Positions 1,752 through 53,166 of a stretch of DNA of 64,000 nt are shown here, one piece after another. A program made the translations under genes and the position numbers. Location of the stretch: NCBI RefSeq assembly GCF_003852715.1, contig NZ_RIAV01000005.1, positions 124,001 to 188,000 of the forward strand, read 5' to 3'. This DNA comes from Ectobacillus antri. Lineage in GTDB: Bacteria; Bacillota; Bacilli; Bacillales; Bacillaceae_G. Numbering within the stretch: the first letter of the stretch is position 1; each line of letters opens with the position of its first letter. The notes under the pieces were generated by a model. It saw only the letters and a list, made by a program, of their open reading frames with translations, was not told the DNA's origin and did not search any database.

Positions 1752-2723
1752 TTATAAAGCCTGTGCCGCTGTAATTAAAGCAAGCTTGTATACATCTTCC
1801 TCGTTACAGCCACGAGACAAATCATTAACAGGCATGTTCAAGCCTTGTAGGATCGGTCCAATTGCTTCAAAGTTACCCAAGCGCTGTGCAATTTTATAGC
1901 CGATGTTACCAGCTTCTAGGCTCGGGAATACGAATACATTCGCATCACCTTTAATAACAGAACCTGGCGCTTTCTTTTCTGCTACAGATGGTACGAAAGC
2001 CGCGTCAAATTGGAATTCGCCGTCTAGTGTTAACTCAGGCGCCATTTCTTTTGCGATGCGCGTTGCTTCTACCACTTTGTCTGTTTCTGGAGACTTTGCA
2101 GAGCCCTTCGTTGAAAAGCTTAGCATTGCCACGCGCGGCTCAACACCGAATAGATCGGCAGTTTTTGCACTTTCAATTGCAATTTCAGCCAAGTCCTGTG
2201 CATTAGGTGAAATGTTGATTGCACAATCAGCGAACACATATTTTTCGTCTTCACGCACCATGATGAAAACACCAGAAGTTTTTGTTACACCTGGCTTTGT
2301 TTTAATAATCTGCAAAGCAGGACGTACGGTATCAGCTGTAGAGTGTGCCGCACCGCTTACAAGCCCTTGCGCTTTGCCCATGTAAACAAGCATTGTGCCA
2401 AAGTAGTTTTCGTCCTGTAAAATTTTACGTGCATCTTCCTCAGACGCCTTCCCTTTACGACGCTCCACAAAAGAAGCGACCATTTCATCCATTGCTTCAT
2501 ATGTAGACGGATCATAAATGGTAACACCGCTTAGTGTTAAGTTCATACTTTGCGCCTTCGCTTCAATATCGCCTTTAGCGCCGATTAAAATCGGTTTTAC
2601 AAGCTCGTCCTTTGCTAATCTTTCAGCTGCGCCTAAAATGCGCTCATCCGTTCCTTCCGGGAAGACGATTGTCGTGCCTTTTCCGTGTAGCTTATCTTTT
2701 AACACTGCAAATAAATCACTCAT
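1752..2723 (-). CDS. pta: Phosphate acetyltransferase
   Basis: Pta interconverts acetyl-CoA and acetyl phosphate in the Pta-AckA overflow route in the cytosol. The protein is 323 residues, the short single-domain bacterial form. Seen motifs are IVFPEGTDERIL near the N terminus, SGAAHSTADTVRPALQ in the middle and the C-terminal GANVFVFPSLEAGNIGYK-like block (here DANVFVFPSLEAGNIGYK). A longer reading frame starts upstream, but a TGAGGAGGC site just before the ATG at 2723 (MSDLF) fixes the start. It is transcribed divergently from hemQ and ends at a shared terminator with lipL. Confidence 0.96.
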   Translation of the reverse strand: MSDLFAVLKDKLHGKGTTIVFPEGTDERILGAAERLAKDELVKPILIGAKGDIEAKAQSMNLTLSGVTIYDPSTYEAMDEMVASFVERRKGKASEEDARKILQDENYFGTMLVYMGKAQGLVSGAAHSTADTVRPALQIIKTKPGVTKTSGVFIMVREDEKYVFADCAINISPNAQDLAEIAIESAKTADLFGVEPRVAMLSFSTKGSAKSPETDKVVEATRIAKEMAPELTLDGEFQFDAAFVPSVAEKKAPGSVIKGDANVFVFPSLEAGNIGYKIAQRLGNFEAIGPILQGLNMPVNDLSRGCNEEDVYKLALITAAQAL

Positions 2724-2937
2724 TCGTAAAGCCTCCTCAAAAATGTACTCCATCCATTAGGATAAAGCTTTTTGTATATAATTTAAACTTTATCGGCTTA
2801 AAAAATGAGCAAACACAAAATGATTATATATTACAAATTTTCAGGAATAATTGTGTCAGCTTTATATAGGATTTTAGTTTTGCTCTGTTTTTGTGCTATA
2901 GTAAGGATATGACAATCTACATAATGAGGTGACCGTA

Positions 2938-3681
2938 ATGAGTGAAGCAGCACAAACACTGGATGGTTGGTACAGTTTACATGATTTCCGCACAATGGAC
3001 TGGGTTTCTTGGAAGCAACTTCCGAGCGACGAGCGCGAAAAGGCAATTGCAGAATTTTTACATATCGTAAGCAAGTGGAACGATACAGAAGCAGCTAACG
3101 CAGGGAGTCATGCGATTTATTCCATCGTTGGTCAAAAGGCGGACATCATGTTCATGATTTTGCGTCCAACAATGGAAGAATTAAATGAGATTGAAAATGA
3201 ATTCAATAAAACAAAGCTTGCGGAATACATGGTTCCTGCATACTCCTATGTATCTGTAGTCGAGCTAAGCAACTACCTTCCTGCGGGCGAGAACCCGTAT
3301 GAAAATCCACAAATTATGGCGCGCTTAAAGCCAATTCTGCCAAAAATGAACCATGTGTGTTTCTATCCAATGGATAAGCGCCGCAACGGTGAAGACAATT
3401 GGTACATGCTTTCCATGGAAGACCGTAAAGCAATGATGTACAGTCACGGTAAAATTGGTAGACAATATGCAGGAAAAGTACGCCAAATCATCACAGGCTC
3501 TGTTGGTTTTGATGACTATGAGTGGGGCGTAACACTCTTTGCTGATGATGTGCTTCAATTCAAAAAGCTTGTATACGAAATGCGCTTTGATGAAGTAAGC
3601 GCGCGCTTCGGCGAGTTCGGCTCTTTCTTTGTCGGCAATATTCTTCCAGTAGAGAAGGTTGCGAAGTTTTTAGAAATATAA
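2938..3681 (+). CDS. hemQ: Coproheme decarboxylase (HemQ)
   Basis: HemQ carries out the last step of the coproporphyrin-dependent haem pathway of Gram-positives, the oxidative decarboxylation of coproheme to haem b using peroxide. The protein has 247 residues of the chlorite-dismutase-like fold. The conserved block CFYPMDKRR contains the catalytic Tyr, and [13 protein letters not shown] plus [15 protein letters not shown] follows with the His that ligates iron. The ATG at 2938 is chosen over a GTG at 2929 because TGAGGTGA lies in the right place for it. The divergent pta neighbour is usual in Bacillus (ywfI position). Confidence 0.95.
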
Positions 3682-3686
3682 TTCAT

Positions 3687-3714
3687 AAGGTGTCCAAATG
3701 GGCGCCTTTTTTAT
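3687..3714 (+). terminator. Terminator after hemQ
   Basis: The stem AAGGTGTCC/GGGCGCCTT is fully paired if two G-T pairs are allowed. A four-base loop separates the arms and a run of T follows. Confidence 0.75.
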
Positions 3715-3869
3715 TTGTCCAATTCTTAGTCATAAGTTGATTTGTTACCTCATAGTTATGAACTATGTGAGTTCATTTCAGTTTGTATTGCCGTGCATGG
3801 ATTCACTCTGCTTTTTTCTGATAAACATCTAAGAGCGATTTACGCACGTATGAAAAACGGGGTGAAGAT

Positions 3870-4298
3870 ATGGGGGTTATCGCTTACAACGAGGAACAAG
3901 TTAAGCTTTTGGCACGTCTGATGCGAGCAGAAGCAGAGGGTGAAGGACAGCTCGGCATGCTGATGGTTGGCAATGTCGGTGTGAACCGTGTTTTGGCAAA
4001 TTGCTTGGACTTTAAAAAGATTCGTAGCTTACAACAAATGGTCTTCCAAACTCCTGGTGGTTTTGAAGCAACACAAAAGGGTTACTTTTACCAAAGGGCG
4101 CGAGAAAGCGATATTGAGCTGGCTCGCCGTACAATTAGAGGCGACCGCTTCTGGCCAGCGTCCTTCGGTTTATGGTTTTTTAGACCGGCTGGTGCATGTC
4201 CGACGAATTGGTACAATCAAAAGAATTCTGGGCGCTATAAGAAGCACTGCTTCTTCCAGCCATCAGGAAGCGATTGTCCAAAAGTATTCTCTATTTAA
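3870..4298 (+). CDS. cwlJ: Spore cortex-lytic hydrolase CwlJ
   Basis: CwlJ is a coat-localised hydrolase that degrades the spore cortex during Ca-dipicolinate-triggered germination. The protein is 142 residues and consists only of the SleB/CwlJ catalytic domain without a signal peptide, as usual for CwlJ. The RAEAEGEG segment near residue 20 carries the expected catalytic Glu, and GNVGVNRV and the C-terminal FFQPSGSDCPKVF follow the family. It is followed 15 bases later by gerQ, whose product is needed to place CwlJ in the coat, so the two form a sporulation operon. A mother-cell (sigma-E type) promoter is expected but I could not define one. Confidence 0.95.
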   Translation: MGVIAYNEEQVKLLARLMRAEAEGEGQLGMLMVGNVGVNRVLANCLDFKKIRSLQQMVFQTPGGFEATQKGYFYQRARESDIELARRTIRGDRFWPASFGLWFFRPAGACPTNWYNQKNSGRYKKHCFFQPSGSDCPKVFSI

Positions 4299-19913: not shown

Positions 19914-19936
19914 ATTACACGCTCGACCATACTTCT

Positions 19937-20035
19937 CTTATCTTTCAGCATTATTCTGCAGGATGTAGCACAATTCCGTTGTCGGCTGTTGCTAAGGTTT
20001 CGTAGGGCCTGGTCCCTCCACCTATTCTTGATAAG
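19937..20035 (-). promoter_or_regulatory. SAM-I (S-box) riboswitch aptamer
   Basis: The minus strand shows the S-box landmarks in order: CTTATC as the 5' side of P1, AGGTGGAGGGACC, GGCCCTACGAAACC, TTAGCAAC, GTGCTACATCCTGCAG, and CTGAAAGATAAG ending with the GATAAG that closes P1. High SAM is expected to favour the downstream terminator and switch off metY-metA. No other gene in the window shows such a leader, including the MetX-like gene. Confidence 0.95.
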
Positions 20036-20053
20036 ACGTATGAAATTAGCTTG

Positions 20054-50437: not shown

Positions 50438-50503
50438 GTGACTGCAAAGAAAATATATAACAAAGACCTTCGGGAAATAATGGTACATATATTCATAATT
50501 ATT

Positions 50504-50641
50504 GGCTGTTTTCGCAAACTTTGTTGCTATGTAACAAATAGTGGGGAGTGGTTGATTCCCGCAGGAGTCTCGCACCTTCCGCTCCAACCAACCTGAAACA
50601 AAGAAACCTATTTAAAAACAACAATCTTTTAGAAAAGAGCC
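50504..50641 (+). mobile_element. MITE copy A (138 bp) with 8-bp target duplication
   Basis: The element begins GGCTGTTTTC and ends GAAAAGAGCC (imperfect terminal inverted repeats) and is flanked on both sides by TAATTATT, a perfect 8-bp direct repeat. It is the inverted partner of copy B at 52988-53131, matching over its whole length apart from point changes and a six-base gap in the middle. It encodes nothing. An 8-bp duplication with GGCTCTTTT-type ends suggests mobilisation by an ISL3-like transposase, but no such gene is in the window. Confidence 0.88.
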
Positions 50642-50846
50642 TAATTATTATATAAATATACAAAAATTGAAGAGAAGTATATACATATAGTCTGCCGCTT
50701 CTTCGTACCTCTCATAAATAAACTGTATGATATAGTTTGTGTTATCTGTACTACATAATTTGCCCTCTTTAATCCTCTCTGCAACTTCGTTATAATCAAT
50801 AGAGAAGTTTTAACTACGTCACTATAAAGAAAAGGTGTATGCATAG

Positions 50847-52403
50847 ATGAGTATTTTATCAGTAAGCAATTTAAGTCATGGCTTTGGAGACCGCGCTATC
50901 TTTAATAATGTCTCCTTCCGCCTGTTAAAAGGTGAGCATATTGGACTCGTCGGCGCTAACGGAGAAGGTAAGTCTACCTTTATGAATATTGTTACGGGCA
51001 AGCTCCAGCCAGATGAAGGGAAAGTTGAATGGTCTAAGCATATGCGCGTAGGCTATTTGGATCAGCATGCTGTTTTGTCACAAGGAATGACAATTCGTGA
51101 TGTCTTAAAAACTGCTTTTCAATATCTATTTGATATGGAAGCTGAGATGAACGGGCTGTATGAGAAAATGGGAGAAGCAACTCCTGAAGAGCTGGAGAAA
51201 ATGCTTGAAGATGTTGGGATTATTCAAGATACTTTAACGAACAATGATTTCTATATTATTGACTCTAAAGTAGAAGAAGTAGCGCGTGGACTTGGTTTAG
51301 ATGATGTCGGCCTAGATCGTGATGTACACGACCTGAGCGGCGGACAGCGCACAAAGGTTCTGCTTGCGAAGCTATTGCTTGAGAAGCCAGATATCTTATT
51401 GCTAGATGAGCCTACCAACTACCTAGATGAAAAGCATATTGAGTGGCTGAAACGCTACCTGCAGGAATATGAGAACGCATTTATTTTGATATCCCATGAT
51501 ATTCCGTTCTTAAATAGTGTAGTTAATCTAATCTACCATATGGAAAACCAAGAATTGAATCGCTATGTGGGTGATTATGATAACTTCCTAAAGATTTATG
51601 AAGTGAAAAAACAACAACTGGAGTCTGCTTATAAGCGTCAGCAGCAAGAAATTTCCGAGCTAAAAGACTTTGTTGCCCGCAATAAAGCGCGCGTTTCCAC
51701 GCGCAATATGGCTATGTCCCGTCAGAAAAAGCTTGATAAAATGGAAGTGATTGAGCTAGCGAAGGAAAAACCGAAGCCGGAGTTCCACTTTAAGGAAGGT
51801 CGTACATCCGGCAAGCTGATTTTCGAAACGAAGGATCTTGTTATCGGTTATGATAGCCCACTTTCTAGACCTTTAAACTTGAAAATGGAGCGCGGTCAAA
51901 AAATTGCCTTAATGGGTGCGAATGGTATTGGTAAAACAACACTTCTAAAGAGTATTTTAGGCGAAATTAAGCCGATTTCCGGCAGCGTTCAGCGCGGTGA
52001 TTACTTACAAATCGGCTACTTCGAACAAGAAATTAAAACATCCAACTACAATACTTGTATTGAAGAGGTTTGGAACGCGTTCCCTTCCTTTACGCAATAT
52101 GAAGTGCGCGCTGCATTGGCAAAATGCGGTCTTACAACAAAGCATATTGAAAGCAAGGTAGAAGTCCTGAGCGGGGGAGAAAAGGCGAAGGTACGTCTTT
52201 GTAAGCTCGTAAATAGCGAGACAAATCTGCTTGTACTGGACGAGCCTACTAACCACTTGGATGTAGATGCGAAGGAAGAGTTAAAGCGCGCTTTAAAAGC
52301 ATACAAAGGCAGCATCCTACTTATTAGCCATGAGCCAGAATTCTATCGTGAGGTTGCGACTGAAGTATGGAATTGTGAGAGCTGGACGACGAAGTTGTTC
52401 TAA
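50847..52403 (+). CDS. ABC-F family ATPase
   Basis: A 518-residue soluble protein with two ABC domains in tandem and no membrane segment. First domain: Walker A GANGEGKST, signature LSGGQRTK, Walker B LLLDEPTNYLD. Linker of about 80 charged residues (ESAYKRQQQEISELKDFVARNKARVSTRN). Second domain: GANGIGKTT, LSGGEKAK, LVLDEPTNHLD. ABC-F proteins act on the ribosome, in translation control or antibiotic protection. It is close to the YkpA/YbiT group, so a housekeeping role is more likely than resistance. GGTG precedes the ATG. Confidence 0.92.
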   Translation: MSILSVSNLSHGFGDRAIFNNVSFRLLKGEHIGLVGANGEGKSTFMNIVTGKLQPDEGKVEWSKHMRVGYLDQHAVLSQGMTIRDVLKTAFQYLFDMEAEMNGLYEKMGEATPEELEKMLEDVGIIQDTLTNNDFYIIDSKVEEVARGLGLDDVGLDRDVHDLSGGQRTKVLLAKLLLEKPDILLLDEPTNYLDEKHIEWLKRYLQEYENAFILISHDIPFLNSVVNLIYHMENQELNRYVGDYDNFLKIYEVKKQQLESAYKRQQQEISELKDFVARNKARVSTRNMAMSRQKKLDKMEVIELAKEKPKPEFHFKEGRTSGKLIFETKDLVIGYDSPLSRPLNLKMERGQKIALMGANGIGKTTLLKSILGEIKPISGSVQRGDYLQIGYFEQEIKTSNYNTCIEEVWNAFPSFTQYEVRAALAKCGLTTKHIESKVEVLSGGEKAKVRLCKLVNSETNLLVLDEPTNHLDVDAKEELKRALKAYKGSILLISHEPEFYREVATEVWNCESWTTKLF

Positions 52404-52429
52404 CCAACTATAAACACATGATAAACCGT

Positions 52430-52468
52430 TCAGCCTCCTCTTACTGATAAAGGGGAGGCTGGCTTTTT
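52430..52468 (+). terminator. Terminator after the ABC-F gene
   Basis: CAGCCTCC/GGAGGCTG forms an eight-base GC-rich stem with a longer loop, followed by a T run. Confidence 0.85.
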
Positions 52469-52523
52469 GTTTGCTTTTGCTCTTATGCTATAATAAGTAC
52501 TCATCATATACTTTGGAGGCATT

Positions 52524-52988
52524 ATGCTAACTTTTGAAGAAAAACTTGCGATTGTATCATCTTTTTCAGAATTAGAGCGAAAAAACGTGTCGTTAGGACG
52601 CGTGAATTTCCATTTTGAAGGCAGCGTGAAGGAAAAAAAAGTGGTTGTTTATCACCTGCATCCGAACGGCAATGGCTTTGTATACGGGGAATACCTGAAT
52701 GGTTATGAAATGAATGACAAGGGTATGGTCAATATCCGTGATTTCTCAGCGGATGCGCTTCGTACAATCATTGAACAGTCCATTTTGTCTCTATCAGAAA
52801 AAGAGGTCGAGGTTTCTGATAAGCCTGCTTTTGAAGAAGAGTGGATTAATGAAGAAGGACATACTCTTATGCTTGTGGAAGAAGACGATTTGTGGAATGT
52901 GTATGCTGGTTTAAACCTTGATGGTACATTCAACTCCTATCGAGAAGCGGCTCAATATCTGGATGAGGAAGGTTTCTCTATTAAATAG
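52524..52988 (+). CDS. Conserved-looking hypothetical protein
   Basis: A 154-residue soluble acidic protein I do not recognise. It begins LTFEEKLAIVSSFSELERKNVSLGRVNFHFEGS and continues with alternating beta strands (KKVVVYHLHPNGNGFVYGEYL), a helix with DALRTIIEQSILSLS, and a C-terminal DLWNVYAGLNLDGTFNSYREAAQYLDEEGF. TTTGGAGG before the ATG shows translation. Its stop codon is completed by the first base of MITE copy B: the codons ATT AAA TA end the target duplication and the G comes from the element. The pre-insertion site would read ATT AAA TAA, so the protein end is unchanged. Confidence 0.82.
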   Translation: MLTFEEKLAIVSSFSELERKNVSLGRVNFHFEGSVKEKKVVVYHLHPNGNGFVYGEYLNGYEMNDKGMVNIRDFSADALRTIIEQSILSLSEKEVEVSDKPAFEEEWINEEGHTLMLVEEDDLWNVYAGLNLDGTFNSYREAAQYLDEEGFSIK

Positions 52989-53131
52989 GCTCTTTTCTAA
53001 AAAAATTGTTATTTTTAGATAACTTTCTTTGTTTCAGATTGGTTGGAGCAGAAGGTGCGGGACTCCTGCGGGAGTGGTTGGTTTCCACTCCCCACTATTG
53101 TTACATAGCAATAAAGTTTGCGAAAACAGCC
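52988..53131 (-). mobile_element. MITE copy B (144 bp) with 8-bp target duplication
   Basis: It is flanked on both sides by ATTAAATA and is in inverted orientation to copy A. It starts GGCTCTTTTC on the plus strand and ends GAAAACAGCC. It has inserted exactly at the stop codon of the 52524 gene, between that gene and its terminator at 53139-53166, so the message now reads through the element before ending. Confidence 0.88.
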
Positions 53132-53138
53132 ATTAAAT

Positions 53139-53166
53139 AAAAGCCCTTGCATCGCAAAGGCTTTAA
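53139..53166. terminator. Bidirectional terminator displaced by MITE copy B
   Basis: AAAGCCCTTGC pairs with GCAAAGGCTTT with one mismatch and a three-base loop, and T/A runs on the sides. Confidence 0.75.

Follow-up and report, generated by a model that had tools for sequence, protein, structure and literature searches.

Organization of the locus

The window analyzed here, a stretch of 64,000 nucleotides from the genome of Ectobacillus antri (G000), contains two short repeats, copies A and B, located on either side of a putative ABC-F ATPase gene and a gene for a protein of 154 residues (Table 1). The preliminary description had presented the two copies as an inverted pair of MITEs, each with a perfect 8-bp target duplication of its own. 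Alignment bore out the coordinates, the inverted arrangement, and the MITE-like nature of both copies, and the duplications are indeed perfect and different from one another (TAATTATT versus ATTAAATA). Aligned together with some flanking sequence, A and B show 84% identity over 168 columns in opposite orientation, with an E value of about 9e-47 in the 64-kb window. The end sequences of the two copies are GGCTCTTTTC and GGCTGTTTTC; the 223-bp unit to which both were compared has unequal conserved ends, termed L (GGCTCTTTTCTAAAAGATTGTTG) and R (GGCTGTTTTCGCAAACTTTGTTGC). A terminator-like hairpin directly follows the right duplication of copy B.

Table 1. Copies A and B, their target duplications, and the enclosed genes (positions in the window)
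Feature	Position	Strand	Remarks
Copy A (138-bp MITE)	50504..50641	-	R end leads on the + strand; positions 85-169 of the 223-bp consensus missing
Copy B (144-bp MITE)	52988..53131	+	L end leads; positions 95-173 of the 223-bp consensus missing
Copy A, left 8-bp target duplication	50496..50503	.	TAATTATT; identical at the orthologous site of G002
Copy A, right 8-bp target duplication	50642..50649	.	TAATTATT
Copy B, left 8-bp target duplication	52980..52987	.	ATTAAATA
Copy B, right 8-bp target duplication	53132..53139	.	ATTAAATA
ABC-F ATPase gene (putative), 518 aa, between A and B	50847..52403	+	ORF; name from the preliminary description, fits by eye
154-aa gene, between A and B	52524..52988	+	ORF; orthologues in relatives

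None of the Pfam families searched matched the 154-residue protein, orthologues of which are encoded in G003 (same genus, at position 3400) and in NZ_AUMR01000042.1 of Ectobacillus panaciterrae. Copy B is inserted in the stop codon of this gene. In the sister genome G002, where site B is unoccupied, the end of the orthologous gene reads ATTAAGTAAAGCCC, with TAA as the stop codon. In G000, the order at this site is ATTAAATA, copy B, ATTAAATA, and AAAGCCC, and the TAG stop codon consists of the TA of the target and the first G of copy B (window positions 52980-52988). The insertion of copy B thus changed TAA to TAG and left the end of the 154-residue protein unchanged.

A known RNA family as the identity of the copies was rejected, as the Rfam matches fall off the copies. 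At gathering score, a SAM riboswitch was the single match in the whole window, with nothing on the copies, and a search of eight loci with copies returned 10 matches up to an E value of 1, none of them on any copy. The SAM riboswitch (Rfam RF00162) occupies window positions 19935-20037 on the minus strand.

A multicopy MITE family in Ectobacillus and related genomes

A search of the G000 genome gave 20 matches, which were merged into 15 places. Both ends were recognized at 14 of these (L020, which has no good left end, was left out), and the 14 two-ended copies are flanked by 8-bp duplications that are exact in 10 cases, have one mismatch in 3, and have two mismatches in 1. The copies in G000 and G002 range from 114 to 223 bp, the full form there being 223 bp, and are therefore too short to hold a transposase gene.

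The search of the own and related genomes for copies with 8-bp duplications, proposed at the outset as a check, covered 114 loci in 10 genomes, with the ends picked blind to the duplication. Six loci gave no profile hit, 78 were two-ended, and 30 had no recognizable end pair of the one type that was sought, some of these possessing ends of another (GTTAAA) type. Exact 8-bp duplications were found at 43 of the 78 two-ended copies and duplications with at most one mismatch at 59 of the 78, a few mis-set copies of the GTTAAA type (e.g., L259) being scored among the mismatches; the control, 6006 pairings of flanks from different copies, gave 0.35% exact matches. When duplication lengths from 5 to 12 were tried, exact duplications were obtained at 8 only. 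The family thus shows the properties of a MITE, i.e., short elements in multiple copies, without a transposase gene, with terminal inverted repeats and target duplications, and at polymorphic sites.

MITE matches were absent from the genomes G001 and G005, and no relative was found at an E value of 0.01 in 50,697 phage records. In G028, the loci L269-L271 have MITE-type ends around a different-looking interior and gave 0 hits to the 223-bp profile.

Independent insertions and loss of the core in place

Comparison with G002 confirmed the early proposal that A and B were inserted independently. The orthologue of copy A in G002 has the same TAATTATT duplication and a length of 118 bp, compared with 138 bp in G000, and site B is empty. 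A and B are therefore independent insertions of different age: A is inferred to be older than the split from G002, and B to have been inserted later or, less likely, to have been cleanly lost in G002. A single composite transposition of the whole segment was rejected because A and B have different duplications and only B is missing from G002.

For 8 of the 14 copies in G000, an orthologous element was found in G002 (in the case of L012 via the alignment of the left flank alone), and at the other six (B, L005, L006, L007, L008, and L015) G002 has no element, the flanks also being altered there at the L006 and L015 sites. The reverse test of nine G002 copies against G000 revealed empty sites with both flanks for L164, L165, L169, and L172 and a site without element and with changed flanks for L163, while L166, L173, L179, and L181 were not judgeable. 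Exact 8-bp overlaps of the flanks at the empty orthologous site were observed for L008 of G000 and for L164, L165, and L172 of G002. The MITE flanks common to both genomes are about 91 to 100% identical.

Six of the eight orthologous pairs differ in length, with site, duplication, and ends being the same or nearly so. Specifically, four sites (L010, L012, L179, and L182) show an identical deletion of 105 bp between two GAGCGGAA repeats; at three of them, the orthologue still holds core sequence, and the deletion must therefore have arisen more than once. Other deletions, with 2-bp repeats, are common to L003 and L007 and to L004 and L005, which are G000 copies at different places, and could result from recurrence, copy conversion, or transposition of a deleted form.

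Ends shared with IS1595-family elements

A and B very probably derive from a 223-bp non-autonomous MITE of the IS1595 family by separate insertions and internal deletions, an assignment based on the 8-bp target duplications and on ends that are common to IS1595 elements. The search for an insertion sequence with the same ends, which had been recommended in the preliminary description, led to IS1595 elements with GGCT(C/G)TTTTC ends and 8-bp duplications. Two of them, reached by a plasmid search with the MITE ends, are located on plasmids of Niallia sp. Man26. Element L309 (positions 2501-4265) has the ends GGCTGTTTTCGCATAGATTGTTGC and GGCTCTTTTCGTAAGAATTGTTGC, with TTTTTAAA on both sides, and contains genes for an IS1595 transposase (DDE_Tnp_IS1595, E = 1.3e-14) and a DinB-family protein; element L313 (2501-4186) has the ends GGCTGTTTTCGCATAGATTGTTAC and GGCTCTTTACGTAAAGTTTGTTGT, with TTATTTAT on both sides, and contains an IS1595 transposase gene (DDE_Tnp_IS1595, E = 1.1e-12) and a small lipoprotein-like gene. 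The L-end query returned 127 plasmid records, and among the 60 matches listed the Niallia match alone was followed; the others listed, nearly all of them from Gram-negative plasmids, matched bases 6-42 at 84% with an E value of 0.6, mostly in a hypothetical gene, and were taken as chance. In another plasmid search with the MITE ends, five of seven records were inspected (H21, H22, H24, H25, and H26), of which H21 was the only one next to an IS1595 gene; an IS4 gene is located close to H24.

On chromosomes, where the end types were counted by reading the ends directly, IS1595 elements with GGCT(C/G)TTTTC ends and an exact 8-bp duplication were found at L324 (G006), L332 (G116), and L334 (G155), and one with such ends and a duplication containing one mismatch at L317 (G023). 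A second IS1595 end type, GGCT(C/G/A)TGTTAAA with close variants, is likewise flanked by exact 8-bp duplications (L316, L319, L322, L333, L336, L343, L344, and L347). Altogether 36 chromosomal IS1595 loci were tested, of which 12 showed a credible end pair plus duplication and 20 showed none, and 4 were judged chance. Profiles of the MITE ends matched 12 of 40 IS1595 loci at an E value of 0.05, 11 of them at or near apparent element ends; at L335, the match lies inside the locus, away from the ends. The best matches were to L334 (E = 2e-6; its transposase frame contains two stops), L325 of G002 (4.6e-5), and L321 of G000 (9.9e-5), the rest being weaker, and the matches of the R profile were mostly weak (E = 0.016-0.017). 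At L339, both end profiles were found (at 152 and 2476), yet no duplication.

L321 (G000:C5:70037-70504) is the only IS1595 hit in G000. It is truncated, without the transposase start and the other end; AAAGATTGTTGTTTTTAGATA is common to its remaining end and the L end of the MITE. L321 and L325 are 99.87% identical over 1556 bp and have different flanks, L321 being without the 5' part; the occurrence of these near-identical copies at different places in two species points to recent movement or transfer. An intact IS1595 partner was not found in G000; a MITE that has outlasted its partner does not require one. In G002, the IS1595 copies L315 and L325 have long open frames; a matching 8-bp duplication was sought for both and was absent. 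Among the 17 genomes with a MITE match, 6 gave an IS1595 hit at an E value of 0.001 and 11 did not; three of the genomes in which an IS1595 hit was absent at this threshold, G012, G016, and G021, contain 14 to 21 MITE matches each. In genomes with MITEs and without an IS1595 hit, the partner was lost, missed, or different. The presence or absence of a transposase gene decides little here; the ends decide more.

According to the mechanism that we propose, an IS1595 transposase acting in trans would bind both ends of the element and would then insert it into 8-bp targets rich in A and T. The hairpin-rich core would often be deleted in place afterwards, with the ends and duplications remaining. 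The core itself, which is widespread in the order and was found within transposon ends of different kinds, would be an old structured module.

Distribution and structure of the core

Within the order Bacillales, the 223-bp unit was matched in 153 of 199 genomes, representing 76 of 97 genera (E = 0.001), as a rule with four candidates scored per genome and with some matches holding part of the core. Many of the matches listed span only about positions 50-174 of 223, at roughly 80 to 90% identity. Judged by these alignments, a core of about 125 bp is recognizable more widely than the ends, contrary to what is expected of a MITE.

The core was found between different ends. In 28 returned loci with core, GGCT(C/G)TTTTC was present on both sides in 7, on one side in 6, and ends of the GTTAAA type on both sides in 1; 14 loci had neither type. 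GTTAAA-type elements of G021 and G035 that are flanked by exact 8-bp duplications (e.g., L241, L253, L259, and L260) likewise contain the core. The core is hence carried within two IS1595 end types; at an E value of 0.001, it was found inside none of 40 autonomous IS1595 loci. From a plasmid search with the core that gave 20 records, four were inspected (H2, H3, H5, and H11). Plasmid pA of Peribacillus sp. R9-11 (L305/L308) contains the core between inverted ends of the GACTGTAG type, directly upstream of an IS1182-annotated gene. This single plasmid, in which the core lies beside the annotated transposase gene and a duplication was not seen, is possibly a third kind of carrier. Pairs of cores in the same orientation, about 80 to 120 bp apart, were observed at L267 (G012) and at G128:C5:23110-23448.

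Covariation was analyzed with 43 cores from 8 genomes and 6 named records, chosen from 83 core hits. In the predicted structure, 18 of 31 pairs show changes on both sides, compared with 9.2 (standard deviation, 1.5) in shuffles, and the number of cells with both-side changes is 100, compared with 24.8 (standard deviation, 5.2) in shuffles and at most 16 with partners slid; the alignment also served to derive the structure, which is thereby favored on the cells paired, and relatedness inflates the contrasts with the shuffles. Both strands of the full-length copy fold better than shuffles, with z values of about -4.2 and -4.1. In a tree of the 83 core hits minus 3 shorter than 118 bases, the grouping, read without branch supports, is mostly by genome and end type, with exceptions such as L214 (G016), which is placed among cores of G021 and G035. 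Exchange of cores between end types within G021 was looked for in this tree and not seen.

It is a strong possibility, if short of a probable one, that the core is hairpin debris without function, the covariation resulting from template-switch correction between the arms of palindromes and the wide distribution from frequent transfer of young MITEs. In palindromes, one arm can be used to correct the other, and such arm-to-arm correction could mimic selection in the covariation of the core. The clustering mostly by genome and end type is what local bursts would give, and cores are frequently lost in place while the ends persist. This reading is at odds with the many core-only matches among those listed across the order, in which the core is visible where the ends are not, and with the presence of the core in two IS1595 end types. 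That the core of about 125 bp is a module of its own, with a selected RNA or DNA structure, which is spread through the order and was acquired by IS1595 ends of two or more kinds and perhaps by ends of IS1182 type, different transposon families thus carrying one and the same folded cargo, is a tentative and rather doubtful proposal.

Improbable proposals: ISL3 as partner and inversion of the segment

Mobilization in trans by an ISL3 transposase, to which the MITEs had originally been attributed, is highly improbable. ISL3-family elements also leave 8-bp duplications, many of them start with GG(C/T)TCT, and ISL3 genes are present in G000, but their ends do not match those of A and B: at an E value of 0.05, the MITE-end profiles gave no match in the 30 ISL3 loci from across the order or in the 3 of G000, compared with the 12 of 40 IS1595 loci described above. 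Where ISL3 ends with a duplication were readable, they were of other types, e.g., GGTTCTATGTCAAATGTTGGGG, most of the 30 loci being without a readable pair; the ISL3 ends in G000 read GGTTCTTTCCAAAG. ISL3 was rejected as partner on these end sequences. Its absence from genomes, with an ISL3 hit in 2 of the 17 genomes with a MITE match and none in the other 15, is a weak counterargument because 11 of the same 17 genomes are without IS1595. Just before the G000 ISL3 copy, positions 780-960 of L031 contain three repeats (GTTACACC.TGTATAGGTGTATGGATTGAAAT), each about 30 bases long and separated by spacers, that look CRISPR-like by eye.

The idea put forward in the preliminary description that the inverted, 84% identical copies could serve as a switch flipping the 2.3-kb ABC-F segment by recombination has next to no likelihood and was dropped, as no sign of inversion was seen: gene order and orientation are the same as in G002, where B is absent, the longest run of identical bases in A and B is 19 bp, which is short for RecA-dependent recombination, and neither duplication is damaged or mixed, as opposed to the swap between A and B that one recombination inside the elements would cause (an argument limited to odd events, since an even number of recombinations would restore the duplications).

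Relation to known elements and significance

The IS1595 elements L309 and L313 and the four chromosomal ones have the same GGCT(C/G)TTTTC kind of end as A and B, which differ from them in being noncoding. ISApl4, a recent example of the IS1595 family, also has AT-rich 8-bp target duplications according to the available text of its description, and its ends (GGGGCTGTACTAGA) differ from those of A and B (PMC12561309). An IS1595-related MITE of Haloquadratum walsbyi assigned to ISHwa6 is listed in the available part of the source with a length of 165 bp, 7 copies, IR 25, and DR 8 (PMC3852290). Like A and B, it is short and noncoding, with an IS1595 partner and 8-bp duplications; unlike them, it is archaeal, and a conserved core is not mentioned in that part of the source (PMC3852290). 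The Bacillus repeats Bcr1, Bant-1, and Bhal-1, given as type I in the tables of their report with lengths of 167, 72, and 74 bp, resemble A and B, in a comparison by description only, as short stem-loop repeats in Bacillus relatives; IS1595 ends, as present in A and B, are not mentioned for them in the accessible text (PMC2267715).

A literature search, with subscription journals mostly outside its coverage, found no description of the Ectobacillus MITE family and none of Ectobacillus insertion sequences, and two stretches of the core searched as letters retrieved no paper. In a review of prokaryotic MITEs, none of six words looked up, Bacillus and IS1595 among them, is present (PMC10969869).

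No claim is made that the elements prefer to insert next to intrinsic terminators. Of 23 unique sites in Ectobacillus, 11 have a terminator-like hairpin at a distance of at most 10 bp, compared with 17% of the intergenic positions of the window, which alone served as control, but in five other genomes this holds for 2 of 35 sites; sites with more than two duplication mismatches and G002 orthologues of G000 sites were dropped from this test.

Overall, A and B very probably represent a new IS1595-family MITE of Ectobacillus, the past mobility of which is well supported. An abundant, seemingly undescribed repeat of Bacillus relatives now has a likely partner, IS1595, and the clean empty sites allow its insertions to be dated. 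The unexpected part is the covarying core that is common to more than one kind of transposon end. If the core is functional, different transposon ends would share a structured cargo; otherwise, the copies would offer a natural series of hairpins deleted in place at known sites.
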